Positions 9,473-43,995 of a DNA stretch of 64,000 bases are shown here, piece after piece. Source of the DNA: Deltaproteobacteria bacterium (GTDB taxonomy: Bacteria > Desulfobacterota > Desulfuromonadia > Geobacterales > Pseudopelobacteraceae); assembly GCA_016182975.1 (NCBI GenBank), contig JACPFJ010000002.1:1-64000 (forward strand), written 5' to 3'. The position numbers and the translations under genes are program-made. The notes under the pieces were generated by a model, which was not told the origin of the DNA, searched no databases, and saw only the letters and a list, made by a program, of their open reading frames with translations. How positions within the stretch are numbered: the first letter of the stretch is position 1; the number at the start of each line of letters is the position of its first letter.

Positions 9473-12400
9473 CTACCCCGCCTGTGCCTCAGCAGGCCTG
9501 CGCGCCCTGCCGGCAAGCCGCCGCCCGAGCAACCAGGCAGCCGCCAGCGCAAACAGCAGTCCGGCGAGCAGCGGGTATTTGACGGCGAAAATAAGCGGCG
9601 TCAGTGCAAAGCGCATCAACATCCTCAGGGTGTCATGCTGGGCGATAAAATCCGCCACCGGCGGGCTGTAGTGATAGTAGAACCTCACAAAAGCGGTTCC
9701 AGGCCCGGACTTGAGCAGGACATCGTCGCGGAAGTGCCGCAGAACCATGACGTGCGGGTCGAGATAGCTTCCGTAGGCCGCCGTGGCGATGAAGCAGCCG
9801 CCACCGCCGCCACCGCCACTGGAGGGTGGCGGAGTTGTTGTTCCTGTGGTGGCGCTGCTGGTTGCCTCCGAGGTCACAACCACCGGGTCCACGATCGAAC
9901 CGAGCGCGGGGTCGCTGTCGTAAGGCCCGTTATCGGTAATCACGAATTTCAGCGTATTTCCCGTCAGGGTAGCGCCGGTCAGCGCAATCCATTCGCCATT
10001 GACAACCTTGTAAAATACCGGGCTTGCCGGCAGCGAGTCGAAGGTGATCTCCGCGGTGATCGTCTCGGGGGCTGTGGTGCTGAGCCCGCCGACCCTGAAC
10101 TGCATCCCGGATTTTGGGGTAACGCCGGCCGGTTTGTTACCGGATGTCAATTGCTGCGTTGTCAGCGAGGCGCAGACGACATCGGTGAGTTCCGTTCCAG
10201 AGGCGTTTGTGACTTTGGCGAAAAAGTTCAGTCCCACGCCGTTCAATGAGAGCTGCGAGGTAACAAGCGATGTGGAATCTTTCAGCGTAAGCGAGCCGCT
10301 ATAACTCTTTGCGACGGTCGGGTTGAACGTGACGCTGAAATTTTTGGACTCGCCGGCAGCAAGCGCTAATGGAGCAAACAGGTTTGTTGAAAATCCTTCC
10401 TTTGGTGTCGTTATGGTATCGATATTGAGAGCTGCTGACCCGGCATTCTTGAGCGTAAAGCTTAGAGTTTTTGTAACGCCTTCATATACCGACCCGAACA
10501 ATGCAGAAGTAACCGTGGTGTTGTTCAGATTGAAAGTGAGACTGCCAGACAAAGTCTGACTTCCGGCTGTACCGGTTACCTGGACAATGTACGGGCTGGT
10601 GGAGGAATCAAACAGAAGGCCGATGGAAGAACTAAAAGGTCCTGATGAGGTTGGTGCAAATTTGACCTTCAAAGTAGTCGAGGCACCAGGATTGATAGAG
10701 AGGGGAAGTGTCGGTAACGATACGATGGAAAATGGTGATGATGGATTATCAATGCTGGTGAGATTTACCGGCGACGTTCCGTTGTTTATTACCTCAAGAT
10801 TCATTGTCTGGGATTCGTTCACGGCGGTTGAGGGGAATGTCAGGGTTCCCTTCGGGTTGGTATCAATGGTATACGGCACGCCGAAACCTTGCAGCGCGAT
10901 GTTCTGAACGCCGCCCGTAACGTTGATGGCGTCGGAGGTGATGTTGAACGAGCTGAGGAAGGTTCCAACCGAGGTGGGAACGAACTGGACGTACACATCA
11001 TAGCTGGTTGCCGGCAGGAGCGTGACTGGCGCCGCGACGGTCGGGGCATTCCCGGTATAGATCAGCTTGAACAGCGTGCTAGCCGGATTGGAAAGGCCGG
11101 TGATGTTCAACGGTGAGCTGCCGCCGTTGGTAAGCGTCAGCTTGAGGGTGTTCGACAGGTTCTGCGTAACACTGCCGAAATCGAGTTGAGATGCAGTTAC
11201 GGTAAGTTTCGGCCCGGTGCCGTTGCCGCCAAGAACAATGGCTTGATCACCGCCGTCAGTGCTGACGGTGAAGCTGCCGTTAAATGGGCCGGCGTCAGAA
11301 GGCTCGAACTTGATATCAATGTTCGTCTGTCCGCCGGCGGGGATGGTAGTGGGGGTGCTGACAAACGAATACCCCTTGGGAAGCGAGCCCAGGCTCTTGA
11401 TGTCCATCTGCCCATCGCCGTCGTTGTATAGGGTGATGGACTTGGTGAGAGTGTTCCCCACCGCCAGGGTGCCAAATTCAAGTTCATTATTGGAGAGGTT
11501 CCGCATGATCGGAGCCACCCCCTTACCCTTGACCAGGACGGACCTGGAAACCCCGGTATCACTGGTCACCGTCATGGTCTGCGAGAAATCGCCCCTGGTC
11601 GTGGGCTTGAAATCGACCCAGTAGGCATCCGACTGTTTGGCCTTGATCCAGGAGCTTAAACCAGACCACCAATAGGTAATGTTAAAAGGGGCGTTCATGT
11701 CGTTTGTGGTAACGTAATAATCCTGATCGCCGTCATTTTCGATTTTGATCTGTTTGGTTATGCCGGCGGTGCCGGCCTTGACACTTCCAAAATCAATCTC
11801 AGTCAGTGCCGGAGTAGCCACACCCGTAGCGGCATCGATGATTTTCATGCTGCTCGGCACGGTTGAAGCCGTGATATTAAAGACCTCCGGCGCCCCGGGT
11901 AAATGGTCGAAGAAAATATCTATCTTGTCGGTGAATGTCCCTGCGGTGGTCGGGGCAAATACTAACTGGAACTGCTTCTTTTGCCCCTGATTTATGGTGT
12001 AGTTATCGGAAGTAAGTACAGTCAGGCCATTGGCAAGATCCCTCAATTTGAATGGCGAGGTATAGTTCGCTGGAAGTGAAAAACCGGTAATCGTAATAGG
12101 AAGGATGCCGGTATTGGTGATTTCGATTATCTGAGTCGCCTGCTGGTTCGTCTGAACATTGGCAAATGTCATGCGGGGATTGGCAGCTGCCGGTATTATC
12201 GACATCGAAGGTGCAACAATCGTTGCCTTAACCACAACCGTCTGGTTGCCGGCGGGCGAATCGGTTTTGATGGTGAAGCTGCTGTTATATGAATTAGCGG
12301 CGGCTGAGTTGGCAGTAACCAGAAAGGTATAGGAAGCGCCGGGCAAAATCAGGGCGGGTGATGCGGGTGTTGGCAAGGCTCCGGCTCCCGTGACGCTGAA

Positions 12401-15400
12401 TGGTGCGGCCGGCTGAACGATGTCGGTGATATTGAATTGGGTGGTTGTGGTATTTGTCAGGGTGACAACCTGGACTGACGCCTTATTGGTTGCAATAGTG
12501 CCGAAATCCACGAGACTGGTGTTCAGGAGAGGACTGGTAACCGTTACGGTGAATGTTTTCTGGACCTTGGTTCCGTTCACATCCTGAACCTGCACGGTAA
12601 AGCTGTAATCACCCGGCACCACGGTCGTGCCGGAGAGGACACCCGTATTGGCATTCACCACCATGCCGAACGGCAACCCGCCGTTAACCACCGACCAGGT
12701 ATACGGGGAAATACCGCCGTTATTGGTGGTGAAGGCAAAAGAATATGCGGTATTGGCAGTAGCCTTCGATGGTGAACCGTCTCCGGAGGTAGGTGTAGCG
12801 ATATCGAGCGCAGGGTTGACTGTAATGGACAACGCCTTGCTGCTGATTGCGCCGGCGGCATCGGTAACCGAAATTGTGGGGGTGAATGTTCCAGTATTGG
12901 TTGCTGTTCCGCTGATGGTTCCACTGCCGGTGTTAAATGTGAGGCCGGGAGGCAGACCACCGGAAATCGACCAACTGACTGGCAGGGTACCACCGGTCAT
13001 GCTGATGCTCTGCGAATAAGCGAGACCGAGGACGCCATTTGCCAGACTGGTGGTCAGGATGGTCGGAACCGGGTTGATGGTGATGCTGAGCGGCGTCTGA
13101 GCGGTCTGACTGCCGCTGTCCGTCGCCTGTACCGTAAAGGAATAGATGCCGCTTCCGGATGGCGCGCCGCTTAACGTCCCGTTGGCCGCAAGGCTTACAC
13201 CCGGCGGCAATGCGCCGGAGATAACAGCCCAGGTGTACGGTCCGGTTCCACCCGCGGCGCTCAAGGTATGGTTTGGCGAACTTACGTAATCAACCCCTTG
13301 GGTCCAAGCACTCAGCTCTGTTGTGGTTACGCTCACCGCGCCCACGCGCAGCGTGAAGGTGCGCTGTGCACTTACCGCGGGCGTGCTGCTGTCGGTAACG
13401 GTGACCGTTACCGAATAGACGCCGGCGGCGGGGTTGTTTCCGGATATGAGACCGGTGGTCGGACTGATTGCAAGCGCGGCGGGGAGGCCGGTGGCGCTCC
13501 ATGTGTATGGATAGACCCCTCCTGCGGCCACGACCTGATAGGAATATGAACCCGCCGTGCCCGCATCCGGCAGGGCCGACGTGGTAACGCTCAACGGGTT
13601 GGTGCCTACGCCGCTGCCGCTGAAATACAGCACCGTGTTGCCGCCGTTGGACGAAATGGAGGTCTTGAAATTGTTGCTCGGATTGCCGGTATACGATCCG
13701 GCGGCCGTGGGGCTGAAACGGATGGTCATGTCGTAGGCGGTGCCGGGGCTTACGGTGACCGGTTTGGGGGTAACGAACGAAAAGGGCGCATCCGGGCTGG
13801 TCATGGCGCTGATGGTGAGCGTCGTGTTGCCGTCGTTGCGCAGCTTGATCGGGATGTCCTTGATCTGTCCGACCGCGACGCTGCTGAAATCGAGGGCCCC
13901 GTTCAATATGGGGTTGCCGCTGCCGTCGGCGATAACCAGTTGCGGCAGGGTGGAGTATTGCAGCAACTGCCCCCAGAGGTCGCCGTTGGCCGGATCGACC
14001 GCGTTCTTCCAGATGATCAAAAACTGGCGGTAATCCACGTCGCCGAAGGCGAGGGCCGGTGCGAGTTGGTTGCCTTCATCGACGTTGATGGGAACGTTGC
14101 CCCCGGAGAGGTTCCCCTGCGGGTCGACAAACTGGCCGTACAGGTCGATGTTGGAGATGTTGGCGTTCTGGTTGCGCGCGTCCTCCCAGATGAGGAGATG
14201 ACTCTGGTTGACGCTGTCGAAGGCCGAGGCGGGCGAAGTCTGGTCCCCGACGGCGTTTGAGGCCAGTATAAGGTTGCCGTACGAAACAAAGTTGGTCAGG
14301 TCGAACAACTGGGCATTGACGTCCTTGCCGGTGGTGGCGAAGGTGGTCGAATTCTGCTCCTCCCAGGCTACCAGCATCCGCTTGGCGGCCGGATCGATCG
14401 ACAGGGCCGGGTGAAAGGCGGAACTGCCGAGCTGGGTATCGAAATAGGTGTTGTTGATCAGCCGGCGCAGCACGATCTTCTGGGAGGTGTCGCTTCCCTT
14501 GGTGAACGTCGCGGTGTAATTGCAAAGCCCGGTATCCGAGTCCTTGGCGTATGCGATGGTCAGGGTCTCGTCGTGCTGGACCCCGCTCCAGAGCATGAAC
14601 GATTCGCCGTCCAGCGGGTTGTAGGCCAGCTTGGGCTTGGATTCCTTTTCGTTTATGGTCCAGACGTACCTTATCGAACCGCTGCCGCTGGTGTTCTCCT
14701 TCAGAGCCGCCTCGGAGTAATTGCTGATGGCCCCTTTCGTCTTGTCGGCCGCCACGTCCCTGTACGCCACCATGCTTGTGCCGACGTGGTTGGAAGGGGA
14801 GTAGGCGATCGGACCGAAGCTGTTGGGGCACCCCTGCCCGACGACCGGGCCGATCAGGTTTTTCACCGGGGTGTATTGCACCGTCACGCTCGGATTGGCG
14901 CCGATCAGCGTGTTGCCGTTGTTCTTCAGGGTGGCCAAGAGGGTGTTGCCGGTGATGGTGATGTCGAAATCGGCCGTGCGGTTGACGCTGTTGCCGTCGG
15001 TGATGGTGACGCTGTAAGGGGCGGAGTTGGCCAGGCTGTAGACGTTGCTGATGATTATCGGGGACCCCGCCTGCCAGACGGGGGCGTTCCATGTGGTGGT
15101 GCTGCGCTGAAAGGAAGTCCAGTAAGCGGTCGGAAGCCCGATCAGATTCGAACCGGTCAGAACAGCGGCGCTGACCGCGATCCCCTGGCGCACCTGCGTG
15201 GTGGCGGTGGCCGGTATGACCCGGTTGTTGTCTATGAAGAAATAGGCCAGCGCCAGGCTGGTCTGTGCCCCGGCCGGAGCGATCGAGAAGCTGTTGTTGG
15301 CGGCGAACGCCCCGCCCCCGGCATTGGTCGAGCCGTTGTTGGTTACGTCGGAATTTGCATAGGTGATGGTGAGGTTGCTCGACAGGCCGATGGCGTTGGA

Positions 15401-16207
15401 GGAGGAGCCGAGGGTGATCACGCTGGTGGTGTCGGTGGCGCTGGGGTTGAGCGGCGACACGGAATAGCCGGTGACCGGCGTTCCATCGGGCAGAGTAATG
15501 CCGGTAACTGCATTGGCGTTTAGCAAGGTCTTCGTGTTGCCCGATGTCCAGGTGGGGGTTGTGGTGTAGGTCGTGGCGCTTGCTGCGGGATAATCGTCGG
15601 AATCGTAATTGCTGGTGCCGAGCCACCCTACGGTAAAGGTGTTTCTGAAGTCGTTGTAGATCACCTCCGGCTCGATCTGGGAAGGGTCGGCCAGGTCGAG
15701 GTGCTCGGAGATCGCAAAAGAGCCGGCAACATCGGGGAGTCCGGCATTGTTGACGAGCCGTCCGTAAATCCGGCTGTACCCCGCCGAGGTATCCGCATAG
15801 ACGACCAGGTAGTTATTGCTGCTGTAATCGAAGGCCACCTTCGGCTGCCACTGGTTGCCGGCGCCGCTGGCTATGGCAAAGGGTGCGCCGCAGACCGGAG
15901 TTGTCGCCTGCAATCCGGCCCCAGGAGTCGAGGCGTCGCAAAGCTTGCCGTAGACGTCGGCATTACCGGCCTGATAATCACTCCAGACCGCGAGGTACTT
16001 ATTGGCGTTGCGGTCGTAGGCAATAGCGGGCTGTTCCTCGTTGTCGGTACCTGAGGTCACCTGGATGGCGCTTCCCGAGACCCCCAGACCGACCTGCTTT
16101 TTCACCCCGGCAGCCGGATCGTTTCCGGAGCCGGAGCATCCCGAAAGAAAGACAACTAACAGCGCCGAGAGGGCAACGCTTTGGCGAATCAGTTTCAGCA
16201 ATTTCAT
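9473..16207 (-). CDS. Giant lipoprotein with Ig-like/ASH repeats and CFI-box C-terminus
   Basis: 2244 residues. A signal peptide ends in a lipobox (LSGC, C24), so the N-terminus is probably lipid-anchored. The first third has repeated modules with 'LVVWxD...YG' wording that look like beta-propeller blades. The middle has putative-Ig (He_PIG-like) domains, and long tracts on both sides consist of ASH/choice-of-anchor-D repeats ('DFGSV', 'F.PT..G.F', 'I.SD'). A Gly-rich linker leads to CFIATAAYGS (from residue 2138), the CFI-box C-terminal motif common in Geobacter, then a hydrophobic segment and a basic tail. Likely a cell-surface or matrix protein; no enzyme motif was seen. GGAGG precedes the ATG. 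Confidence 0.8.
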   Translation of the reverse strand: MKLLKLIRQSVALSALLVVFLSGCSGSGNDPAAGVKKQVGLGVSGSAIQVTSGTDNEEQPAIAYDRNANKYLAVWSDYQAGNADVYGKLCDASTPGAGLQATTPVCGAPFAIASGAGNQWQPKVAFDYSSNNYLVVYADTSAGYSRIYGRLVNNAGLPDVAGSFAISEHLDLADPSQIEPEVIYNDFRNTFTVGWLGTSNYDSDDYPAASATTYTTTPTWTSGNTKTLLNANAVTGITLPDGTPVTGYSVSPLNPSATDTTSVITLGSSSNAIGLSSNLTITYANSDVTNNGSTNAGGGAFAANNSFSIAPAGAQTSLALAYFFIDNNRVIPATATTQVRQGIAVSAAVLTGSNLIGLPTAYWTSFQRSTTTWNAPVWQAGSPIIISNVYSLANSAPYSVTITDGNSVNRTADFDITITGNTLLATLKNNGNTLIGANPSVTVQYTPVKNLIGPVVGQGCPNSFGPIAYSPSNHVGTSMVAYRDVAADKTKGAISNYSEAALKENTSGSGSIRYVWTINEKESKPKLAYNPLDGESFMLWSGVQHDETLTIAYAKDSDTGLCNYTATFTKGSDTSQKIVLRRLINNTYFDTQLGSSAFHPALSIDPAAKRMLVAWEEQNSTTFATTGKDVNAQLFDLTNFVSYGNLILASNAVGDQTSPASAFDSVNQSHLLIWEDARNQNANISNIDLYGQFVDPQGNLSGGNVPINVDEGNQLAPALAFGDVDYRQFLIIWKNAVDPANGDLWGQLLQYSTLPQLVIADGSGNPILNGALDFSSVAVGQIKDIPIKLRNDGNTTLTISAMTSPDAPFSFVTPKPVTVSPGTAYDMTIRFSPTAAGSYTGNPSNNFKTSISSNGGNTVLYFSGSGVGTNPLSVTTSALPDAGTAGSYSYQVVAAGGVYPYTWSATGLPAALAISPTTGLISGNNPAAGVYSVTVTVTDSSTPAVSAQRTFTLRVGAVSVTTTELSAWTQGVDYVSSPNHTLSAAGGTGPYTWAVISGALPPGVSLAANGTLSGAPSGSGIYSFTVQATDSGSQTAQTPLSITINPVPTILTTSLANGVLGLAYSQSISMTGGTLPVSWSISGGLPPGLTFNTGSGTISGTATNTGTFTPTISVTDAAGAISSKALSITVNPALDIATPTSGDGSPSKATANTAYSFAFTTNNGGISPYTWSVVNGGLPFGMVVNANTGVLSGTTVVPGDYSFTVQVQDVNGTKVQKTFTVTVTSPLLNTSLVDFGTIATNKASVQVVTLTNTTTTQFNITDIVQPAAPFSVTGAGALPTPASPALILPGASYTFLVTANSAAANSYNSSFTIKTDSPAGNQTVVVKATIVAPSMSIIPAAANPRMTFANVQTNQQATQIIEITNTGILPITITGFSLPANYTSPFKLRDLANGLTVLTSDNYTINQGQKKQFQLVFAPTTAGTFTDKIDIFFDHLPGAPEVFNITASTVPSSMKIIDAATGVATPALTEIDFGSVKAGTAGITKQIKIENDGDQDYYVTTNDMNAPFNITYWWSGLSSWIKAKQSDAYWVDFKPTTRGDFSQTMTVTSDTGVSRSVLVKGKGVAPIMRNLSNNELEFGTLAVGNTLTKSITLYNDGDGQMDIKSLGSLPKGYSFVSTPTTIPAGGQTNIDIKFEPSDAGPFNGSFTVSTDGGDQAIVLGGNGTGPKLTVTASQLDFGSVTQNLSNTLKLTLTNGGSSPLNITGLSNPASTLFKLIYTGNAPTVAAPVTLLPATSYDVYVQFVPTSVGTFLSSFNITSDAINVTGGVQNIALQGFGVPYTIDTNPKGTLTFPSTAVNESQTMNLEVINNGTSPVNLTSIDNPSSPFSIVSLPTLPLSINPGASTTLKVKFAPTSSGPFSSSIGLLFDSSTSPYIVQVTGTAGSQTLSGSLTFNLNNTTVTSALFGSVYEGVTKTLSFTLKNAGSAALNIDTITTPKEGFSTNLFAPLALAAGESKNFSVTFNPTVAKSYSGSLTLKDSTSLVTSQLSLNGVGLNFFAKVTNASGTELTDVVCASLTTQQLTSGNKPAGVTPKSGMQFRVGGLSTTAPETITAEITFDSLPASPVFYKVVNGEWIALTGATLTGNTLKFVITDNGPYDSDPALGSIVDPVVVTSEATSSATTGTTTPPPSSGGGGGGGCFIATAAYGSYLDPHVMVLRHFRDDVLLKSGPGTAFVRFYYHYSPPVADFIAQHDTLRMLMRFALTPLIFAVKYPLLAGLLFALAAAWLLGRRLAGRARRPAEAQAG

Positions 16208-17544: not shown

Positions 17545-20430
17545 TTAAATCGTCCCCAGAATCCTCGGTGTGATGAATATCAGCAGCTCCGTCTTTGTCT
17601 TCTGCTTCGAGTTCGACTTGAACAGCTTGCCGAGAAAGGGGATATCCATCAGGAACGGCACGCCGTCATCGGCCTCGGTGTCGCTGTCCACGTAGATGCC
17701 GCCGATGACCGTTGTCTCGCCGTCCCGCAGCAGCATCTCGGTCGTGGCCTGCTTCTTGTTGATCGGCGGCGCGGCGGTGCCGGTGCTTGCGCCCGGCGAG
17801 TCGTTCTTGGCGTCGATCTTCATGCCGATGGTGCCGTTGGGATTGATGTGCGGCGTCACCTCCAGCGACAGCGCCGCCTCCACGAACTTCGTCTCAACCT
17901 TGTCGGATGTGGACGACGTGTACGGTATCTGCTGCCCCTGGGTGATCCGGGCGGTCTTGTTGTTGAGCGTGGCCACCTTGGGTGTGGAGACGATCTTGAT
18001 CAGGCCGGCGCTGGCGGCGGCGTTGAGGCGCATGTCGAGCTGGATGTTGCTGGTCAGGGTCCCGAACGAGATCCCCATCGTACCACCGGGGCTCGCGCCG
18101 GTGCCCACCGTCGGCGGCGCGGACGTTAGACCGCCGAATCCGGTATCAAGGCTGTTGATCCCCAGGAACGAGGCGGAACCGTCGCGATAGTGCACGCCCC
18201 AGTTGACCCCCAGACTGCGGGTAAAGGTGGAGGTCGCCTCGACGATGCGCGCCTCGATCATGACCTGTTTTTCCGGCACATCGAGCTGGTCCTTCAGCTT
18301 GCGCATATCCTCGATGGCCTGGGGGATGTCCTTGACGATGACCTTGTTGGTGCGGGTATCCTGGGCAATGGTGCCCCGATCGCTTTTGAGCGCGGTGAAC
18401 TGGCCGACGATACTGCCGATATCGGCATAGTTGACGCTGAATGTTTCCGTCTTCAGCTCGATAGCCTTAAAGAGCTGTTTTTTGATTTCCAGTTCTTCGT
18501 CGGCCTGGGACTTGAACTTTCCCTTGCCCTTGATGATGATGATGTTGCCGTCCTCGCGCTTGTCGAGCCCCTTTGTATCCAGGATGATGTCCAGCGCCTG
18601 GTCCCAGGGGACGTTGACCAGCTTGATGCTGATGGTGCCGCCGACATCGTCGCCCAGCACGAAGTTCTTGTTGCTGACCTCGGCGAGAAGCTGGAATATC
18701 TTGCGTACCTCGGCATCGGCAAACTCCAGGGTCACCTTGCGCCCCTTGTACAATCTGGTCGAATGAAGCGGCCTTTCGGCTGGTTCGGCCGCCTGGGCAA
18801 GCTCGGACGGGATTTCGGCGTCCCTGGCCGGCGCTGCCTTGGCTGCCCGGGCGATCTGCGGGATGGGTTCCTTGGGTTCGGCGGCGGCCTTTTCCGCGGT
18901 CAGACCCTCGGGATGCTTGAAGTCCACGAAGAGCATGTCCCCTTCCTGCCTGAATTCGTATGGCGCGGCGGTGCGCAGCGCAATCCTGATCCTGGTGTCG
19001 GTCCCCTTACGGGTCTTGGCGAGGAGGGGGGTCACGCGCAGTACCGGCGAAATAAAACCCTGGGCTTCAAGCGAACGCTGGAGGCGTTTCGGCAGGCCGG
19101 CATTTTTTATGGTGAGGGTGACAAAACCGGGGGTTTTAACAGGAGCGTCTACAACAACATCGCCCGCAACCTTGACGGCAACCCTGGAAATGCCGTCGAT
19201 CACCTGGAAGTCGATCGCTTCGACACCGGCAGGCCCAACGTGGCGAACCTCGGGTTTGGAAACGCTTTTTACGGATGATGCGGGTGCTGCGGCAACCTGT
19301 GCCTCGGCCGGTTTTGCCTCTGGCTGGGGGGGCACTTCGGCCGCCTTTTCCGAGGCGGCCTCCACCGGCGGTGCCGCAGGGGATTCCGCAGCGGGTTTCG
19401 CATTCAGCGTAACCGTTATTCCCTCGTCGGACCCGCTTGCAACCGCTTCGGAGAAGCTGCCGTTCACCGCATCGAACACGATGCGTACTTTACCTGGATA
19501 AATTCCGATGCGGGCCAAGGCTATACCGGCCGCATTGATCGGCACGATACGGTTTGCGAGTGAGCTCTTCACGCCGAACAGGTCGATGACAAAGCGCTCC
19601 GGCTTGCTGAGACGGAACGACTTGAATTCTTTCGCCCCGCCTTGAACGGCAAGAAAAATGGCGCCGTCTTTGACGGAAACCGCCGTCAGGGAGCGCTGCT
19701 GCGCCACTTCGGGAGTTGCAGCCGGAGGAACCGGCTGTTCAGCAACTGGCGCAACGGCAGCGGGCGTTTCAAGCGGGGTCTTGGCGGGTTCAACCGGAGA
19801 TGCGGCCTCCGGCGCCGATGCAGCGGCAACAGGGGTTTCTGCGGGGGGTACGGCCGGTTCAGTCGGCGCTGCAACCGCCTCCGGGGGCGCAACAACCGGC
19901 TCCGGCTCTTTTGCGGCGGCCGGCTCCGCCGCGGGAACAGCCGCTGCGGCGTCGGCGGTTGCGGCCACCTGGGCAGACGGAGCGGGAAAGGAAATCGTCA
20001 GCTCACCCTTCTGATCGGGAGCGGTGGAGATGACCGCTTCGGCGTCCTTGGCAAGCTCGATGTCCACCCTTGTGAGAACACCGGCGTCCGTATCGTAACG
20101 GTTGACCGTGACGGTTTTGAAGTTCCCCTTGTCAATGACGAGCGGCGCAGTGACAGACCCCTGGGTTGTCTGGGAGAGATCCACTACAAGCCTGAGCGGC
20201 GCCGTGGTCTTGTAACTGGTATAGGTTGCCGGAGAGGAGAGCTTGATGGCGAGCTCGGTCCTGTCACCCTCACCCGATACGCTGATCGATTCGATGGCGG
20301 CAAGCTTTGGGTCGGATTTCCGGCCGCTCTCCGGGGCCGCATCCGCAATTCGGGCCATACAGGGAATGAAGCCCGCCATCACGGCGAGGACTAGCGCCAG
20401 GGCTATCGATTGTTTCGTCATCCACTTCAT
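17545..20430 (-). CDS. pilQ: Type IV pilus secretin PilQ
   Basis: 961 residues from the ATG at 20430 (AGGAG upstream; an earlier in-frame ATG has no site). A signal peptide is followed by AMIN domains separated by long Ala/Pro/Glu-rich linkers, then an STN/secretin-N region (RKVTLEFADAEVRKIFQLL) and the C-terminal secretin pore domain (VEATSTFTRSLGVNWG; ITQGQQIPYTS; TELLIFITPRIL). It forms the outer-membrane gated channel for the pilus. It is the last pil gene of the xre-pilMNOPQ unit, ten bases after pilP. It is longer than the usual 700-900 residues because of the linkers. Confidence 0.95.
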   Translation of the reverse strand: MKWMTKQSIALALVLAVMAGFIPCMARIADAAPESGRKSDPKLAAIESISVSGEGDRTELAIKLSSPATYTSYKTTAPLRLVVDLSQTTQGSVTAPLVIDKGNFKTVTVNRYDTDAGVLTRVDIELAKDAEAVISTAPDQKGELTISFPAPSAQVAATADAAAAVPAAEPAAAKEPEPVVAPPEAVAAPTEPAVPPAETPVAAASAPEAASPVEPAKTPLETPAAVAPVAEQPVPPAATPEVAQQRSLTAVSVKDGAIFLAVQGGAKEFKSFRLSKPERFVIDLFGVKSSLANRIVPINAAGIALARIGIYPGKVRIVFDAVNGSFSEAVASGSDEGITVTLNAKPAAESPAAPPVEAASEKAAEVPPQPEAKPAEAQVAAAPASSVKSVSKPEVRHVGPAGVEAIDFQVIDGISRVAVKVAGDVVVDAPVKTPGFVTLTIKNAGLPKRLQRSLEAQGFISPVLRVTPLLAKTRKGTDTRIRIALRTAAPYEFRQEGDMLFVDFKHPEGLTAEKAAAEPKEPIPQIARAAKAAPARDAEIPSELAQAAEPAERPLHSTRLYKGRKVTLEFADAEVRKIFQLLAEVSNKNFVLGDDVGGTISIKLVNVPWDQALDIILDTKGLDKREDGNIIIIKGKGKFKSQADEELEIKKQLFKAIELKTETFSVNYADIGSIVGQFTALKSDRGTIAQDTRTNKVIVKDIPQAIEDMRKLKDQLDVPEKQVMIEARIVEATSTFTRSLGVNWGVHYRDGSASFLGINSLDTGFGGLTSAPPTVGTGASPGGTMGISFGTLTSNIQLDMRLNAAASAGLIKIVSTPKVATLNNKTARITQGQQIPYTSSTSDKVETKFVEAALSLEVTPHINPNGTIGMKIDAKNDSPGASTGTAAPPINKKQATTEMLLRDGETTVIGGIYVDSDTEADDGVPFLMDIPFLGKLFKSNSKQKTKTELLIFITPRILGTI

Positions 20431-20440
20431 GCGGAGCTCC

Positions 20441-21010
20441 TTATTGTTTCCTGGGAAGGGTGATCCTGATATGCTCCTTGAGCACCCTGCCGTTATCATC
20501 CCTGAACTGTTCGAGCACATCCACGCCGGTGGTGGTAATCGCCGTTATCCGTCCCTCGTTTTTGCCGATCGTCATTCCGATTTTGAGCACATAGCCCTTG
20601 CCATTGGGGTCGGTCACCATTGCGTGGTTTTCCTTGCCGCCGGTAACGATGCCGATCAGCTTGAACTGGCTGACATCGAAGTTGTGGATCGGCAGGGTGG
20701 GCCTCAACGATCTCCGGACGCTCTCCTGGGAAAGGCTCGGCGCGGCCTTGGCCGCTGCATACGGCTTGAACGGATCCTTTTTTGTGCTGAAATCAAATTG
20801 GTTTACCTGCGGCGGAGGCAGCTTGAGAGCCGAGCTGACCGGTTTCTGAACAGGCTTGGCAGGCGGGGCGGCCGGCTTTGCAACCGCAGCGGCAGGTTGT
20901 GGAGCGGCAGGCTGCGGCTCCTTTTTATCGCATCCCGCAAGCGCGGCGGCAGCCCCCAACACAAGTATCAGCACGCATGAGCGGCTATTTCTTGTTAGGC
21001 TTTTTATCAT
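20441..21010 (-). CDS. pilP: Type IV pilus assembly lipoprotein PilP
   Basis: 189 residues with a lipobox (LAGC, C27), an Ala/Pro linker, and the PilP beta domain (KDPFKPY; FKLIGIVTG; ..YVLKIGMTIGKNEGRI). It links PilQ to the inner-membrane PilNO complex. Its 5' end overlaps the pilO 3' end by 26 bases, so translation is probably coupled. Confidence 0.92.
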   Translation of the reverse strand: MIKSLTRNSRSCVLILVLGAAAALAGCDKKEPQPAAPQPAAAVAKPAAPPAKPVQKPVSSALKLPPPQVNQFDFSTKKDPFKPYAAAKAAPSLSQESVRRSLRPTLPIHNFDVSQFKLIGIVTGGKENHAMVTDPNGKGYVLKIGMTIGKNEGRITAITTTGVDVLEQFRDDNGRVLKEHIRITLPRKQ

Positions 21011-21590
21011 CCTTCATCTCTTTCTTATCCAAGAACCGGAATGTTGTCGCCAGGCAGTTCACCCTGGTCATCATCCTGTTGTTGACGTTACGGATATCGG
21101 AAAACGCCACGTTGTTAATGTTGACGATGCGGGGGAGGTTGGCTACCGCGGCAAAGAAGTTGGCCACGCTGTAGTAGGAGCCGGAAACCGAGATGTCAAC
21201 CGGGACCTCGGCGTAAAAATCCTTGGGCGTCTCGCCCTTGGGCCTGAAAACGAGAAAGTCGAGGCCGGCGTTCTTGCCGAGGGTGGTGATGCTGGTCAGG
21301 AGTGACGGGATCTCCTTGGAGTTCGGCAGCTCGGTCAATGCCTGGGCCAGCTCACGGTTCAACTGCTCATATTCGGCCTTCAGCCGCGGCAGGTTGTTGG
21401 CGATCCTGGTTTTTTCCTCGATTTCGGCCTGCAGCTTGGCATATTCGGCTTTCAGGCTCGTATGTTCCTTGTACTTGGGGATGTACAGGAACCAGACCAT
21501 GGCGGCCGCCTCAAGCACGACAACGAGCACGAGAATGAGTATTTTCTGCTTGGTCGGCAGTTTGAGTATCTTTTCTACCTGTGGATCCAT
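20985..21590 (-). CDS. pilO: Type IV pilus inner-membrane protein PilO
   Basis: 201 residues from the ATG at 21590; AGGACGG lies seven bases before it, whereas the upstream TTG is too close to the site. One transmembrane helix (about residues 17-37) is followed by a coiled coil (KAEYAKLQAEIEEKTRIANN) and a ferredoxin-like PilO fold. It pairs with PilN to align the secretin with the motor. Confidence 0.92.
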   Translation of the reverse strand: MDPQVEKILKLPTKQKILILVLVVVLEAAAMVWFLYIPKYKEHTSLKAEYAKLQAEIEEKTRIANNLPRLKAEYEQLNRELAQALTELPNSKEIPSLLTSITTLGKNAGLDFLVFRPKGETPKDFYAEVPVDISVSGSYYSVANFFAAVANLPRIVNINNVAFSDIRNVNNRMMTRVNCLATTFRFLDKKEMKDDKKPNKK

Positions 21591-21620
21591 ATTCAATCCG
21601 TCCTGGCTGATATGATGCCG

Positions 21621-22202
21621 CTATTTGGGGGCATTCGGCGCCGGCGGCCCGGCCGGTTCGGGAGTAGGCTGCAGCTTGCAGACCAACTCGAAACGCTTCA
21701 GCTTGATCCCGCCGCTCTCACTCTGTTCCGAGACGACCAGTTCCACTCCCATGTAGTCGGAGGAGGCCTCAAGACTGCGCATGAATGTTGCAATCAGCTC
21801 TTCGGTGTAGGCAAGACCCGAGATCCTGATGTCGCTGCCGCTCTCGCCGTACCCGGTCAGCCACAACTGGTCTGGGGTGATGTCGCTCATCGTGGCCAGA
21901 CGCCGGGCCGGGCCGGTCTTGTTCTTGCGCAACTGGGCCAGGACATCCAGTTTTTTCTTGACCTGTTCCTTCAAGGTCTTGAGTTCTTCCAGCTTGCCTA
22001 TCTTCGCCTTCAGCTCGTTGATCCTGTTGTTGGCGGTATTGATATCGTTTTTCGTGGTGGATATCTGCATCCGTTTGAAGAAGTACATCGACATGACGAC
22101 CGCCGCCACCAGCAGCAGGCTGACGCAGAATATGACGATCTGCTGTATGGCCGATTCCTTCTTCTTGGCGGCCCGCACCGGTAACAGGTTGATCTTGATC
22201 AT
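21621..22202 (-). CDS. pilN: Type IV pilus inner-membrane protein PilN
   Basis: 193 residues. The N-terminus (MIKINLLP) is the short cytoplasmic motif that binds PilM. A transmembrane helix (about 22-44) and a coiled coil (NNRINELKAKIGKLEELKTL) follow, then the PilN fold. A Pro-rich tail ends the protein. Its ATG overlaps the pilM stop in an ATGA arrangement. Confidence 0.92.
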   Translation of the reverse strand: MIKINLLPVRAAKKKESAIQQIVIFCVSLLLVAAVVMSMYFFKRMQISTTKNDINTANNRINELKAKIGKLEELKTLKEQVKKKLDVLAQLRKNKTGPARRLATMSDITPDQLWLTGYGESGSDIRISGLAYTEELIATFMRSLEASSDYMGVELVVSEQSESGGIKLKRFELVCKLQPTPEPAGPPAPNAPK

Positions 22203-23254
22203 TTGTCCCCCACCCTCCTTATGGCAAGCCCGACGGTTACCGCCATGAGCGGTCCGATCTCCGCAAGGTATTCGGGGTCAAAATCCTTTTCATTGTATTT
22301 GAGCTTTGCAAAGGGCTCGATCATTTCCACCGGCAGCCCCAGCTTCTCGCTGATCGCATCCAGCAGGTTGCACACCTTCGAGCATCCGCCGCTCACGAAG
22401 ATCCGGGTAATCCTCTCCTCGTTGGCCGTCGAGTTGTAGAAGTCCAGCGAACGCCTGATTTCCTGGGTGATGGTTTCGTTGACCTTGGCGATCACATCCA
22501 TAAGCTCGCTGTTGCCGGTTTCACGGGCCAGCATCTTCATCGACTCGGCCTCGGGGGTGTTCAGCCCCATCTGCTTCTGGATCTCCTCGGTGTAGAGGTT
22601 GCCCCCCATCTGGACGTCCCGCGTGAACAGGGTGCCGCCGGATTTGACGATGTTGATGTTCATGACGCTGGCGCCGATGTTGATCAGCGCCAAGACCTCA
22701 TCCGGCCCGGCGTCGTGATTTGCCTCGAATGCATTCTGAACGGTGAAGGAGTCGACGTCCACCACCGAGAGATGGAGAGCGGCCTCGTTGAACACCGCAA
22801 CGTAGTCGTTGATGATGTCCTTCTTGCTGGCCACGAGCAGGACATTCATCCTGGTCGGGTCGGTGCTGTCTGGGGAGAGTATCTGGAAATCCATGTTGAC
22901 GTCGTTGATGTCGAACGGGATGTACTGCTCGGCTTCCCAGGCGATCTGGTCTTCAAGCTCCTCGGTCGGCATCGCCGGGAGCATGATCTTGCGGATAATG
23001 ACCGAATTTCCGGATATCGAGCAGGCGACATCCTTGACCTTTATGCCGAGACTTGCCACGAGATTTTTTATGGCGCTCACGATGGAGGCGCTGTCCATCA
23101 GCGAATTATCGACAATCGCTTCCGGAGGCAGCGGCACAAGGCCCACATTGAGGAGCTGATACGTACCCTTCTGCTCCTTGAGCTGCACCAGCTTGACCGA
23201 GTGGGAACCGATGTCTATGCCGATGACCTCTTTTTTCTTCTTCAAGAAAAGCAT
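22199..23254 (-). CDS. pilM: Actin-like type IV pilus assembly ATPase PilM
   Basis: 351 residues with the FtsA/actin-fold signatures: phosphate-1 IGIDIGSHSVKLVQL, an internal LINIGASVMNINIV segment and the adenosine motif IFVSGGCSKV. It binds the PilN tail in the cytoplasm and organises the inner-membrane platform. First pil gene of the unit, 18 bases after the xre gene. Confidence 0.94.
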   Translation of the reverse strand: MLFLKKKKEVIGIDIGSHSVKLVQLKEQKGTYQLLNVGLVPLPPEAIVDNSLMDSASIVSAIKNLVASLGIKVKDVACSISGNSVIIRKIMLPAMPTEELEDQIAWEAEQYIPFDINDVNMDFQILSPDSTDPTRMNVLLVASKKDIINDYVAVFNEAALHLSVVDVDSFTVQNAFEANHDAGPDEVLALINIGASVMNINIVKSGGTLFTRDVQMGGNLYTEEIQKQMGLNTPEAESMKMLARETGNSELMDVIAKVNETITQEIRRSLDFYNSTANEERITRIFVSGGCSKVCNLLDAISEKLGLPVEMIEPFAKLKYNEKDFDPEYLAEIGPLMAVTVGLAIRRVGDK

Positions 23255-23272: not shown

Positions 23273-23473
23273 TCAATCGAGAAAGACCTTGTTCTTTTCT
23301 TCAAGCGAATAACCCAGCGCCAGGATGATCTTTCGCATGGTCTCCAGACGGCACTGTTCCCCCCGCTCAACCCTGTCGATTGTAAGCGCCGATATCCCCG
23401 CCTTGCGGGCCAGTTCGGCCTTGCTCAACAGACGGGACTCCCTGATCGCCTTTACCCTGTTATTTGTCTTCAT
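23273..23473 (-). CDS. Small XRE-family helix-turn-helix regulator
   Basis: 66-residue protein that is almost only a Cro/CI-type helix-turn-helix (LLSKAELARKAGISALTIDR, then VERGEQ). AGGATG lies six bases upstream of the ATG. It sits between the riboswitch and pilM on the same strand, so it should share the riboswitch-controlled transcript. Its targets are unknown; control of the pil operon itself is a plausible inference. Confidence 0.88.
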   Translation of the reverse strand: MKTNNRVKAIRESRLLSKAELARKAGISALTIDRVERGEQCRLETMRKIILALGYSLEEKNKVFLD

Positions 23474-23596
23474 ACACGCATCCTATGAAATTGATAAAAC
23501 TTGCGCCACATTTACAACAAATAATATCAATGTCAAGTAATTTATATGAAGTTATATAACAAATTGGCAAACTCAAATGTTGCGCGACGCGAATGC

Positions 23597-23649
23597 AAAA
23601 AAGCCGGGTCGCCTATCTCTTTTGTAAAGGATATTTCGGCGACCCGGCT
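23597..23649 (-). terminator. Riboswitch expression platform: intrinsic terminator
   Basis: A 12-bp perfect stem (23602-23613 with 23638-23649) has a 24-base loop and is followed by six Ts on the minus strand. The 5' half of the stem is also the 3' part of the GEMM-I aptamer, so folding of aptamer and terminator exclude each other. This suggests ligand binding permits read-through into xre-pilMNOPQ (on-switch). Confidence 0.88.
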
Positions 23650-23714
23650 GTCTCGGTGAGACCCAATGGGCTTTCCGTCCCACCCTCGCGGGTGGTTTAG
23701 TATTATCGTGTATC
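23630..23714 (-). promoter_or_regulatory. GEMM-I riboswitch (cyclic dinucleotide; probably cyclic AMP-GMP, GEMM-Ib)
   Basis: The minus strand shows all GEMM-I landmarks: the conserved ACTAAACC segment, P2 with a GNRA loop (CCACCC GCGA GGGTGG), the core GGGACGGAAAGCC, the P3 helix (GTCTC/GAGAC) and the tetraloop-receptor region AGCCGGGTCGCCG, closed by GATA/TATC. The position that is G20 in the Vibrio Vc2 aptamer aligns to A here (GATAATAC), the change reported for GEMM-Ib riboswitches of Geobacter that sense 3',3'-cyclic AMP-GMP. The ligand call depends on this hand alignment. It lies in the leader of xre-pilMNOPQ. Confidence 0.9.
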
Positions 23715-23741
23715 TTGCTATTTAGCTTCCTGACATTTAAA

Positions 23742-23755
23742 GCATGGTCTGTGCC
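23742..23755 (-). promoter_or_regulatory. Sigma-54-type promoter before the riboswitch
   Basis: On the minus strand GG-N10-GC is exact (GGCACAGACCATGC), close to the TGGCAC-N5-TTGC consensus. The predicted start near 23730 puts the transcript's first base about 16 bases before the aptamer. An overlapping sigma-70 candidate exists upstream: TTGACT (23794-23799), 17 bases, TAGATA (23771-23776). rpoN and an NtrC-type activator are encoded in this window. Confidence 0.65.
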
Positions 23756-23803
23756 CTCCGGCATGGAAACTATCTACATGATTTGCACCTCGGAGTCAAC
23801 GAT

Positions 23804-32871: not shown

Positions 32872-34236
32872 CTACTCGATTCCGAACTCCTTGAGTTTGT
32901 AGAGCAGCGAACGGTGGCTGATCTCCAGTATTCTGGCCGCCTGGGTGCGGTTGCCCCCGGTCCTGGCCAGGGCCTTGCGGATCAGGTCGCGCTCGATGGC
33001 CTCCTCGGCCTTCTTGATGGAGAGGTCCTCATCCATTGGGGATACCTGGGGACTCGCCACCTCGCGGATTCCGCCGGGCAGGCACGCCGCGGAGAGGCAA
33101 TCCCCCTCGCAGAGGATCATGCCGCGCTCGATGACGTTCTCCAGTTCCCGTATGTTGCCCGGCCAATTACAGGCCATCAGGCTTCTCATGGCGTCCGGTG
33201 CGATCCGTTTCGGCGGCCGCTGCATGTCCTCTGCGTATTTCGCCATGAAATGCTCGGCCAGAAGCGGGATATCCTCGACCCGCTCCCGAAGCGGCGGCAA
33301 CTGGATGGAAAAGACGTTCAGGCGGAAAAAGAGGTCCTCGCGGAAGCGCCCTGCCCTGACATCCGTCTCCAGGTCGCGGGAGGTGGCCGAGATCACCCGC
33401 ACGTTGACCTTGCGTGACGAGGCGGCGCCGACCCGTCGGATCTCCTCCTCCTGCAAAACCCGCAGCAGCTTGACCTGGAGTGCGGGCGGCATCTCGCCGA
33501 TCTCGTCCAGAAAGAGCGTCCCGTTGTCGGCCTGCTCGAACAATCCGCTCTTGTCTCCGGATGCGTCGGTGAAGGCTCCCCGTACATGGCCGAACAGCTC
33601 GCTCTCCAGCAGGTTCTCGGGAATGGCGCCGCAGTTGACAGCCACGAACGGTTTCACGGCCCGAATACCGCTCTCATGAATTGCCCGTGCCACCAGCTCC
33701 TTGCCGGTACCCGACTCCCCCAGGATGAGGACCGTTGTCTTCAGGTCGGCCACCTTGCGGATCTGCCCGAAGATCTCCTCCATGGCGCTGTTTCGGCTGA
33801 TAATGCCGCGGAAGGCGGCCTTTCCCGCCACGACCCGGCGCAGACGGCTGTTTTCCTCCTTGAGGCGCTCGCGCTCCTCGGCCTTTTTCAGCACCATCAC
33901 GATCTCATCCTTCTTGAAGGGCTTGGAGATGAAATCGTAGGCCCCCATCTTCAGACACTCCACGGCGGTATCGACCGTGCCGTAGGCCGACATCATGATT
34001 ATGGCCGATGGGACACGTTCCTCCAGAGCCCTGGCGAGAAAGGCCTTGCCGTCCATCTCCGGCATGCGGATGTCGCAGAGGACGAAGTCGTAGACCTTCT
34101 CGCGGGCGCGGCGCAGCCCTTCGTGTCCATCCGCCGCCGTATCTGCCTGGTAGCCCTGGCGGGCCAGCAGCAACGCCAGCATGTGACGCAGGTTTTCCTC
34201 GTCGTCTATGATCAGGATATGTTTTTCGCCTGCCAT
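32872..34236 (-). CDS. NtrC-family sigma-54-dependent response regulator (PilR-like)
   Basis: 454 residues: receiver domain (D11, D12; phospho-acceptor D55 in CDIRMP; SKPF lysine), AAA+ domain with GESGTGKE Walker A, the GAFTDA loop that contacts sigma-54, and a C-terminal Fis-type helix-turn-helix ([20 protein letters not shown]). It activates RpoN promoters when phosphorylated. It lies just upstream of the minor-pilin unit and behind its histidine kinase gene, so control of the two sigma-54 pilus promoters is a natural inference. Many paralogues exist in this group, so the name pilR is not assigned. Confidence 0.93.
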
Positions 34237-34262: not shown

Positions 34263-34311
34263 AGCAGCCAGCAGCCAGCAGCCAGCCGCTTGCCGCTAGC
34301 CGCTAGCCGCC
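34263..34311. repeat. Seven tandem heptamers at the kinase/regulator junction
   Basis: The + strand reads three units of AGCAGCC, then AGCCGCT, TGCCGCT, AGCCGCT and AGCCGCC in phase. The kinase stop codon (34296-34298) falls inside the array, so its last residues and stop are set by repeat units. Confidence 0.75.
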
Positions 34312-35804
34312 GCCGGCAACCAGAGCGTGAAACAGCTCCCCTTGCCCGGAGCGCTCCTGACGGTTATCCTGCCGCCAACGCCCTCGATGATCCGCGCCGA
34401 TATGGCCAGACCGAGGCCGGTCCCTTTTCCCGGCTCCTTGGTGGTGAAAAAGGGTTCAAAGATGCTCTTTATGTGCTCTTCGGGGATGCCGCAACCGTTA
34501 TCCAGCACCTCAAGGCAGACATAACCCGCAGAAGGCCCCGTCAAGGCCGCGCTGCTATCCCTCACCCCTCTTATGGCAACTCTTCCCCCGCACGGCATGG
34601 CATCCCGGCTGTTGAGCATGAGATTGATCAGCACCTGCTGAAGCTGGTGCGGATCGACCAGGGCCTGCGGAAGCGCATCCTCGAACCAGGTGGAGACCTT
34701 GATACCCTTGAATGCCCCCTGCTGGATCAGCAGTCCGGCGGAATCACGCACCAGTTGCGGGATGTCGGCGGCTTCGACGGCGCTGGCGCGGGGGCGGGAG
34801 TAATCCAGCAGGCCGCGCACGATGCGGTCGATGCGGGCGCAATCCTGGGTGATGCGCCGCGTATAGTCCTGGATGGCGGCATGCCCCGTCTGCTCGCCGG
34901 CCAGGAGCTCGGCGTAACCCATGATGGAGGCCAGCGGGGTGCCGATCTCGTGGGCCATCCCCGCCGCCAAAAGCCCGATGGAGGCCATCTTCTCCGAGCG
35001 CAGCGCCTCTTCCCTGGCCAGGCGCAACTCTGTGTTGGCCTGCTCCAGGGCGGTCATCTGCGCGGTGACCTGACGGTCCTTTTCGAGGAGCGCATCCGAC
35101 ATCTCGTTGAAGGCCACGGCCAGCCGGGCCAGTTCGGCGCTGCCGGAGACCCGCACCCGCTGGCCGTACTGCCCGCCGGTGATCCTTTCGGTGGCGGTCA
35201 AAAGGCGGCTGACCGGCGCCACCACGATGCGCGAGAGGATGAAGGCCCCGAAACCGAGCAGCAGGATGAAATCAATGGCGAAATATGCCAGATAGAGTTG
35301 GCGGGAGCGGTTCAGGCGTTCCTTCTCGGCAGAGAGCGAGAGCGCCAGCCCCGCCTTTGCGGCCACTGCGCCGCTGCGGGTGACCGGCGCCACACAGACG
35401 ATGCCGGCGCCGTCGGGGAGAACATAGCTCCCCTTGGCAACCTCTTCCAGCCCGGCGAATGGCTGGTAGATATCGCCGTTTTCCCGTCCCGCGGTGAAGA
35501 TGACCTTGCCGCCCGCATCCAGCAGTGTGAGGCGGATGAAGGACGCATCCTCCGCCAGCTTCTGGGCGTAGACCGCGGCCGGGGAAGCGGAAGGGATCAT
35601 CCCGTCGGGATAGGCGGGAATCACATCCGGCAATTGGCTGATGAAGGTCGCCAGGAGCATGCGGGCATGATCGCCCTTCTGGGCATAGAGGTCGTTGGCG
35701 GCGGTGCGGAAGGCGAACAGGCTGAAGAGCAGCCATGCCATGAGCAGCAGGCAGCTCAGGAAGGCCAGGATGGAAACGGTAAGGCTGGGCCGCAACTGGC
35801 GCAT
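34296..35804 (-). CDS. Membrane sensor histidine kinase, partner of the NtrC-type regulator
   Basis: 502 residues: transmembrane helix 1 (about 10-32), periplasmic sensor region (about 33-168), helix 2 (about 170-192), HAMP-like linker, a coiled coil, HisKA with phospho-His H285 (MAHEIGTPLAS), and an ATPase domain (N box NLMLNSRDAM, G boxes DNGCGIP and GTGLGLAIS). It should phosphorylate the regulator encoded 60 bases downstream. The signal is unknown. It follows pilD by only three bases, so kinase and peptidase are co-transcribed. Confidence 0.92.
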   Translation of the reverse strand: MRQLRPSLTVSILAFLSCLLLMAWLLFSLFAFRTAANDLYAQKGDHARMLLATFISQLPDVIPAYPDGMIPSASPAAVYAQKLAEDASFIRLTLLDAGGKVIFTAGRENGDIYQPFAGLEEVAKGSYVLPDGAGIVCVAPVTRSGAVAAKAGLALSLSAEKERLNRSRQLYLAYFAIDFILLLGFGAFILSRIVVAPVSRLLTATERITGGQYGQRVRVSGSAELARLAVAFNEMSDALLEKDRQVTAQMTALEQANTELRLAREEALRSEKMASIGLLAAGMAHEIGTPLASIMGYAELLAGEQTGHAAIQDYTRRITQDCARIDRIVRGLLDYSRPRASAVEAADIPQLVRDSAGLLIQQGAFKGIKVSTWFEDALPQALVDPHQLQQVLINLMLNSRDAMPCGGRVAIRGVRDSSAALTGPSAGYVCLEVLDNGCGIPEEHIKSIFEPFFTTKEPGKGTGLGLAISARIIEGVGGRITVRSAPGKGSCFTLWLPAAASG

Positions 35805-42555: not shown

Positions 42556-43995
42556 TCAAAAGTGCCTTTTTCTTTCAGAAGAGGAACCCAGTCTCAGCAA
42601 TTCCCGGTACTTGGTGACCGTGCGCCGGGCAATATTGACCGTCTGACTCGAGAGCATCTCGGCGATTTTCTGGTCAGAAAGCGGTTTCCTCGGATCTTCC
42701 TTTTCTATGATATCACGGATACGGTTCTTGACACTCTCGGATGCAACGAAATCCCCCTCGCTGGTGGAGAGGCCACTGTTGAAGAAGTACTTCAACTCAT
42801 ACAGTCCCTGAGGGGTCTGCATGTACTTGTTGGTGGTGACGCGGCTGATGGTGGACTCGTGCATGCCGATGTCGTCGGCCACGTCCCGCAGCACCAGGGG
42901 GCGCAGATACTCGATGCCGCGGTCAAGGAACTCGCGCTGGAACCTGACAATGCTCTTGGCCACCTTGTGGATGGTGCGTTGGCGCTGCTGGATGCTTTTG
43001 ATAAGCCAAAGCGCCGAGCGGATCTTCTCGCTGATGTACTCCTCGGCCTTGGAATCCACCGAACCGTTGCCGCGCGCATCGGCGTAGTATGGATTCACCT
43101 TCAGGTTCGGCAATCCCTCGTCATTCAGCATCACCAGGTATTCATCGCCAACCTTGTAGACGAAGATATCCGGAGAGATGTAGTGAACATCCTCGGAACC
43201 GTAGATCCTGCCCGGCCGTGGATCGAAACCGCCAATGATCTTGGCCGCGATCAGCACCTGGTTGAGGTCAACCCCAAGTTGCCGGGCGATCTGCTTGTAC
43301 TTGCGGGTCTCCAGGTCTTTAAGGTGGTTGAGCAGGATACGTTCCACCAGACTCCCCTGCATCCCCAGGAAGCGGGCCTGTATCAGGAGGCACTCCCGCA
43401 GGTCACGGGCCGCCACGCCGGTGGGATCGAACTCCTGGATGCGTTCCAGAACAGACAGCACCGTTTCCTCGTTGGTGGAGCATGCACTGGCGACCTCCTC
43501 CAGCGAGGCGCGCAGGTATCCGCCTTCATCGACATTGCCGATGATCTCTTCCCCGATATGGAGTTCATTCCCGGCAAAGTGTCCCATGTGGAGCTGCCAC
43601 AACAGGTGATCGATCAGGGTTCCCTTGCGTGTCAGCAGGTTTTCGAAGGAGGGGCGCTCGTCATCGCCGCTGTACTGCTCACCGGAACTGTAATTGTATC
43701 CGTCAAGATAGCTGTCCCAGTCACGCAGAGTGTCCTCGCCGGCCTCAACCTCACGGAACTCGTCCTTTTGCTCAACCGGTTCAACCTCTTTCTCGGCAGC
43801 CTCCAGCGGTTCCGACTCGCGGATATCTTCGGCCTCGACGCTTTCCTCCAGGAGCGGATTCTCCTCCAGCTCCTGGCGCACTACGTCCTGAAGCTCGATG
43901 CGAGTCAACTGGAGCAGTTTGATGGCCTGCTGCAACTGGGGAGTCATCACCAGCTGCTGCGTCATCTTCAGTTGTTGGCGCATCTCCATTGCCAT
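42556..43995 (-). CDS. rpoN: RNA polymerase sigma-54 factor RpoN
   Basis: 479 residues. It has a Gln/Leu-rich N-terminal activator-response region (QQLVMTPQLQQAIKLLQL), an acidic stretch (about 50-100), the core-binding domain, the helix-turn-helix (DVADDIGMHESTISRVTTNK) and the C-terminal RpoN box (ARRTVTKYRE). It recognises GG/GC promoters at -24/-12; two such candidates stand before the pilus units in this window. It follows lptB, the common gene order in proteobacteria. Confidence 0.96.
   Translation of the reverse strand: MAMEMRQQLKMTQQLVMTPQLQQAIKLLQLTRIELQDVVRQELEENPLLEESVEAEDIRESEPLEAAEKEVEPVEQKDEFREVEAGEDTLRDWDSYLDGYNYSSGEQYSGDDERPSFENLLTRKGTLIDHLLWQLHMGHFAGNELHIGEEIIGNVDEGGYLRASLEEVASACSTNEETVLSVLERIQEFDPTGVAARDLRECLLIQARFLGMQGSLVERILLNHLKDLETRKYKQIARQLGVDLNQVLIAAKIIGGFDPRPGRIYGSEDVHYISPDIFVYKVGDEYLVMLNDEGLPNLKVNPYYADARGNGSVDSKAEEYISEKIRSALWLIKSIQQRQRTIHKVAKSIVRFQREFLDRGIEYLRPLVLRDVADDIGMHESTISRVTTNKYMQTPQGLYELKYFFNSGLSTSEGDFVASESVKNRIRDIIEKEDPRKPLSDQKIAEMLSSQTVNIARRTVTKYRELLRLGSSSERKRHF

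Follow-up and report, generated by a model that had tools for sequence, protein, structure and literature searches.

The closest described relative of the element reported here is the riboswitch preceding the pilM operon of Geobacter metallireducens, a c-GAMP ON-switch in which aptamer and terminator are mutually exclusive, as studied by NMR and ITC (PMC9262584, NAR 2022). This pilM riboswitch serves as a model for co-transcriptional ON-switching and is presented as the element that controls the pilus operon of Geobacter. In G. sulfurreducens, a regulator gene and pilMNOP are under the control of a GEMM-Ib riboswitch and belong to a regulon activated by GacA, a GGDEF enzyme of the Hypr type (PMC6456294, eLife 2019). 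When gacA is missing, the expression of the regulator and of pilMNOP falls weakly (2–3-fold), that of omcST falls likewise, and that of pgcA and omcAHG falls 10–16-fold (PMC6456294). Residue A20 is the determinant of cGAMP recognition in these aptamers, an A20G substitution in the switch of Gmet_0970 shifting its ligand to c-di-GMP (PMC6456294). As regards transcription initiation, the study of the RpoN regulon of G. sulfurreducens provides a sigma-54 consensus (TTGGCACGGTTTTTGCT), a type also found in the locus described below, and an RpoN/PilR promoter for pilA, and its main text does not include pilM (PMC2725144). The promoters located before and behind the G. metallireducens switch are not described in the part of PMC9262584 used here and, in the same way, the corresponding part of PMC6456294 gives neither the promoter class of pilM nor any bypass promoter.

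The window, i.e., the whole 64-kb stretch of DNA that was analysed, comes from a genus different from that of the G. metallireducens switch and carries an orthologue of it; the pairing of riboswitch and pilM operon is therefore already published, and both elements are GEMM-Ib transcriptional ON-switches located before a pilM operon. Taken as a whole, the locus probably consists of a GEMM-Ib cGAMP ON-switch that follows a sigma-54 promoter and acts as a booster over a downstream promoter. The sequence features underlying this reading are the aptamer, its A20, the overlapping terminator, a sigma-54 motif found in half of the orthologues and the conservation of a downstream motif; the ligand, the activities of the promoters, the binding of Xre and the identity of the activator are what we infer. 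The features of the locus, all of whose switch, promoter and operon elements lie on the minus strand, and the sigma-54-related genes of the window are as follows.

23741–23756, minus strand: sigma-54 –24/–12 element GGGCACAGACCATGCT (sequence and spacing test in orthologues)
23635–23714, minus strand: aptamer of the GEMM-I (c-di-GMP-I) family, GEMM-Ib type (RF01051; A20)
23630–23633, minus strand: 3' strand of P1, TATC (sequence and MFE folds by transcript length)
23597–23649, minus strand: intrinsic terminator, 12-bp stem followed by T6 (helix 94% paired over 31 orthologues)
23542–23559, minus strand: AT-rich, partly palindromic box TTATATAACTTCATATAA, candidate Xre operator (conserved block upstream of TTGAC, about 106 loci)
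23509–23536, minus strand: predicted downstream promoter, TTGACA (23536–23531), 16 nt, TAAATG (23514–23509) (conservation of TTGAC)
23273–23473, minus strand: xre, first gene of the operon, 66-aa HTH_3 protein (Pfam HTH_3, E 3e-10)
22199–23254, minus strand: pilM (PilM_2, 2.7e-84)
21621–22202, minus strand: pilN (Pfam PilN)
20985–21596, minus strand: pilO (Pfam PilO)
20441–21010, minus strand: pilP (Pfam PilP)
17545–20520, minus strand: pilQ secretin, start codon uncertain (Secretin, AMIN, STN)
32872–34236, minus strand: sigma-54 activator (AtoC/NtrC type) that may regulate the upstream promoter
34296–35804: histidine kinase, partner of the candidate activator
42556–43995, minus strand: rpoN, sigma-54 (Sigma54_DBD 9.2e-64, TIGR02395 7.1e-135)

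The only Rfam family that exceeds its gathering score anywhere in the 64-kb window is RF01051, which matches positions 23711–23635 of the minus strand (45.4 bits for a gathering score of 35, E 1.1e-5, model positions 1–87); the 5' strand of P1 (GATA) occupies 23714–23711. The equivalent of position 20 in Vc2 numbering is an A at 23701, which assigns the aptamer to GEMM-Ib, and C21/U22 lie opposite G45/G46. These features (A20 and the CU/GG closing pairs) are invariant in all 31 intact orthologous switches. One of these 31 (L007, JACMKU010000046.1) is carried with a Geobacterales xre-pilM locus by a contig labelled Chitinophagaceae, which is probably mis-binned. The GEMM-Ia switches Vc2 and Cd1 share the fold and the Rfam family but have a G20 with G-C/C-G closing pairs, whereas the switch of the window has an A20 with C-G/U-G; furthermore, Cd1 is an OFF switch whereas the logic here is that of an ON switch. 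The preliminary description, whose coordinates are correct although no strand was given, had recognized a GEMM-I aptamer of the Ib type and is borne out on both counts, by the covariance search and by the residue at 23701.

The intrinsic terminator is built on the 3' strand of the aptamer, as had also been proposed. Its stem pairs AGCCGGGTCGCC (23649–23638) with GGCGACCCGGCT (23613–23602) over 12 of 12 positions, encloses a 24-nt loop and is followed by T6 (23602–23597, minus strand), and AGCCGGGTCGCC is at the same time the 3' strand of the aptamer and the 5' strand of the terminator. Likewise, TATC (23633–23630) can pair either with the GATA of the aptamer or with a GATA located inside the terminator hairpin. 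When growing transcripts are folded, the MFE structures still show the stems of the aptamer at lengths of up to about 120 nt, and the terminator hairpin takes their place from 124 nt, the energy going from –30.9 kcal/mol at 120 nt to –38 and then to –52 at 130 nt; as these folds include neither tertiary contacts nor ligand, they show only that two folds compete for one strand. Over the two stems of the aptamer and that of the terminator, which make up the three helices of the model, 96.9% of the cells are paired with 17 two-sided changes, whereas the pairing drops to 42–70% when the helices are slid. This overlap supports the terminator-based ON-switch logic put forward at the outset, and the process can be pictured as follows. 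RNA initiated at the upstream promoter would fold into the aptamer, whose 3' strand (23649–23638) and TATC would also be needed by the terminator. If the ligand is bound, the strand would be held in the aptamer and the polymerase would continue into xre-pilMNOPQ; if it is not, the 12-bp terminator would form and transcription would halt at 23602–23597.

The distribution of this arrangement was examined in 110 pilM loci gathered from Geobacterales genomes. A combined aptamer and terminator model, built from ten sequences including that of the window (which scores 139 bits as one of the training sequences), detects this element ahead of xre-pilM at 32 of the 110 loci. As these loci are related, the counts given here and below are not independent and the p-values are only indicative. 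Two copies, L139 and L241, look decayed: in the former, the 5' half of the aptamer is gone whereas its 3' part and the terminator are retained, and the latter has a degenerate 5' part. The gene xre precedes pilM in 107 of the 110 loci, irrespective of the presence of a switch. Its product shows weak family matches to HipB/RstR-like repressors. The order that had been proposed, in which read-through reaches xre first and pilMNOPQ after it, agrees with the HTH_3 match of the former and the Pfam assignments of the five pil genes.

About 124 nt of AT-rich leader separate the T6 of the terminator from xre. Within this region, a TTGAC motif is found 58–74 nt before xre in 106 of 107 xre-pilM loci (7.4 expected from shuffled sequences), including all 31 switch loci that were scored as well as loci devoid of the switch; where a switch is present, the motif is always located 3' of the terminator. 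The alignment of the 107 loci also reveals a conserved TGTAAAT about 15 nt past TTGAC and an AT-rich, often palindromic box before it. In the window, the –35 element is perfect and the –10 element is imperfect (TAAATG, the conserved –10 consensus being TAAAT), and a simple consensus promoter scan of the window does not call this promoter, so that the case for it rests on its conservation. The motif probably serves xre-pilMNOPQ as a promoter whose activity would depend on neither RpoN nor the ligand. Furthermore, the best 14-mer palindrome of the AT-rich box scores 11.15 (9.60 for shuffled sequences), and this box is possibly an Xre operator. In the leaders of pil switches, intact or decayed, TTGAC lies within 200 nt past the terminator in 33 of 33 cases and a strict promoter pattern in 25 of 33; the same features are found in 3 and 0, respectively, of 38 other GEMM-Ib leaders, and a downstream promoter was therefore rejected as a common trait of GEMM-Ib leaders.

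These data bear on the manner in which the operon is gated. According to a strict AND gate, sigma-54 and its activator would start all transcripts, the riboswitch would decide whether they pass the terminator and nothing else would transcribe xre-pilMNOPQ. Half of the orthologues have a correctly spaced sigma-54 motif, and rpoN and an activator-kinase pair are present within the window, which is in line with such a gate, but the TTGACA-N16-TAAAT motif between terminator and xre, with its TTGAC in 106 of 107 loci and its presence in loci without switch, and the mere 2–3-fold drop without gacA in G. sulfurreducens (PMC6456294) make it unlikely. A strict gating of pilus assembly by RpoN together with a dinucleotide is thus unsupported, as the predicted sigma-70-type promoter behind the terminator, whose motif is conserved, would bypass both controls. 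This promoter is, in predicted form, the start site downstream of the aptamer that the preliminary description had itself named as contrary evidence. The small decrease of pilMNOP is what a bypass would predict and could also have other causes. According to the preferred reading, the predicted downstream promoter would transcribe xre-pilMNOPQ irrespective of ligand and RpoN, and the riboswitch would be a ligand-gated booster over a basal, probably autoregulated transcription; judging from the conservation of the promoter motif, the switch probably boosts transcription and is not its only gate.

The ligand of the switch is most likely 3',3'-cyclic AMP-GMP, judging from A20, the orthology with G. 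metallireducens and the presence of a Hypr GGDEF protein. The genome (66% complete) encodes a receiver-GGDEF protein (L080) of the Hypr, cGAMP-producing type, with a Ser at the selectivity position in GHLVGSQV, whereas eight other GGDEF proteins of this genome that match the same motif have an Asp. Among PDB chains, the closest is 6d9m, in which a GGDEF domain from Geobacter is part of a fusion; the two proteins are 69% identical over this domain. We read 6d9m, through its lysozyme fusion, as Gmet_1914, which is identified as a Hypr enzyme in PMC6456294. Close matches to L080 are found in 124 of 141 genomes. The genome harbours five GEMM-I elements, four of which are of the A20 type (that of the window, L003, L004 and L005) and one of the G20 type (L001). 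The latter (G000:C2:8103-8182), the only G20-type GEMM-I found in the genome, is located upstream of a gene for a sensor-like protein, and the cell seems to use both types of dinucleotide riboswitches. Were the Ib call wrong, the aptamer would sense c-di-GMP, as GEMM-Ia does, or both dinucleotides. Such a specificity would fit the Rfam family, which is identical for the two classes, the many ordinary GGDEF proteins and the G20-type element of the genome, and the omcST switch, which is cited as sensitive to both ligands (PMC6456294). It is nevertheless very unlikely, as A20 is found throughout the 31 intact orthologues, the orthologous switch of G. metallireducens binds c-GAMP (PMC9262584) and an A20G change turned a related switch to c-di-GMP (PMC6456294).

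The promoter that would feed the cGAMP switch lies just upstream of the aptamer. As previously stated for this locus, a GG-N10-GC element is found at 23756–23741 (GGGCACAGACCATGCT, with GG at 23755–23754 and GC at 23743–23742) and its predicted start, around 23730, lies 15–19 nt ahead of the aptamer. A consensus match in the window was rejected as evidence for sigma-54, the 63 matches with at most three mismatches comparing with 102 expected. Orthologous leaders were scored with a matrix derived from the published consensus (weights approximate; a score of at least 8 taken as strong), nine other spacings serving as control. A strong site occurs at the correct spacing in 17 of 32 pilM-switch leaders, as exemplified by AGGCATGTTTTGTGCT (L120), TGGCACACTGTCTGCA (L227) and TGGAACCTTACTTGCA (L235), whereas none of the other spacings yields more than 2 of 32; the sigma-54 promoter, at chance level in the window considered in isolation, is thus strongly supported by its orthologues. 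If the decayed L139 and L241 are left out, 15 of 30 leaders have the motif. In the other 15, the sigma-70 motifs are better (p 5e-4 in a rank test), for instance TTGACT-N18-TATAAG, suggesting that the promoter class has been exchanged before the same switch. Sigma-54-like sites are found at 15 of 30 pilM switches versus 4 of 38 other GEMM-Ib elements (Fisher, p 4e-4), and pilM loci without switch show no enrichment (10 of 76 at the correct spacing versus 8–22 of 76 at others). A sigma-70 promoter was also considered for the upstream position in the window and rejected, only a weak TTGACT-N19-GATAGT being seen. That the leader is instead fed by read-through from the co-directional upstream pilY1-pilW cluster, GG-N10-GC being fortuitous and the switch an attenuator within a long operon, is improbable: a same-strand ORF does end at 23804, about 50 nt before the element, and the motif by itself is at chance level, but its conservation is spacing-specific (17 of 32) and a sigma-70 promoter replaces it in the other leaders.

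The sigma-54 form is found in the genus of the window (family f1) and in most sampled genera of family f3, and the sigma-70 form in the remainder of family f1 and in family f4. This distribution, read from family labels and not from a tree, suggests at least two changes of promoter class.

The window also contains a gene encoding a DsbC-like protein and the pilY1-pilW genes, pilY1 being named from its position and size and not from a family match. A sigma-54 site, AGGCACCGTTTTTGCT (32753–32738, minus strand), lies about 40–55 nt upstream of the DsbC-like gene. In 14 of 30 relatives, this site scores at least 10 at the correct spacing versus 0–6 at other spacings, and most of the sites in the relatives are found 52–56 nt ahead of the start codon. 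As the DsbC-like gene has a sigma-54 site of its own, control of the pilus cluster by RpoN is plausible beyond the riboswitch leader. Downstream of pilQ, positions 9473–16207 (minus strand) encode a putative 2244-aa lipoprotein or surface protein with repeated sections. Elsewhere, L158 (G000:C36:116214-116339) and L157 are GEMM-Ib switches that follow strong sigma-54 motifs (AGGCACGCTTTGTGCT and AGGCACGGATTATGCT, respectively) and precede genes for small exported proteins ending in ISMRFSFAF and ISLKMGFSF.

A more complete scheme, on which we are evenly divided, would combine these elements: sigma-54 and sigma-70 promoters would have replaced one another at least twice within the order before a cGAMP ON-riboswitch, aptamer and terminator being unchanged, and this switch would be stacked on an Xre-autoregulated bypass promoter of the pilus-machine operon, so that the dinucleotide, RpoN and Xre inputs would be added and not multiplied. 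No description of the sigma-54/sigma-70 exchange or of the conserved promoter behind the switch was found in the passages of the literature covered, and these features may be partly known. If the conserved promoter behind the switch is real, the switch would only boost expression, which would explain the weak effect of the loss of cGAMP on pilMNOP. If there are two promoters, reporters should separate the upstream one from the downstream one. Finally, the swap of promoter class before an unchanged riboswitch would, if true, clearly exemplify modular rewiring.
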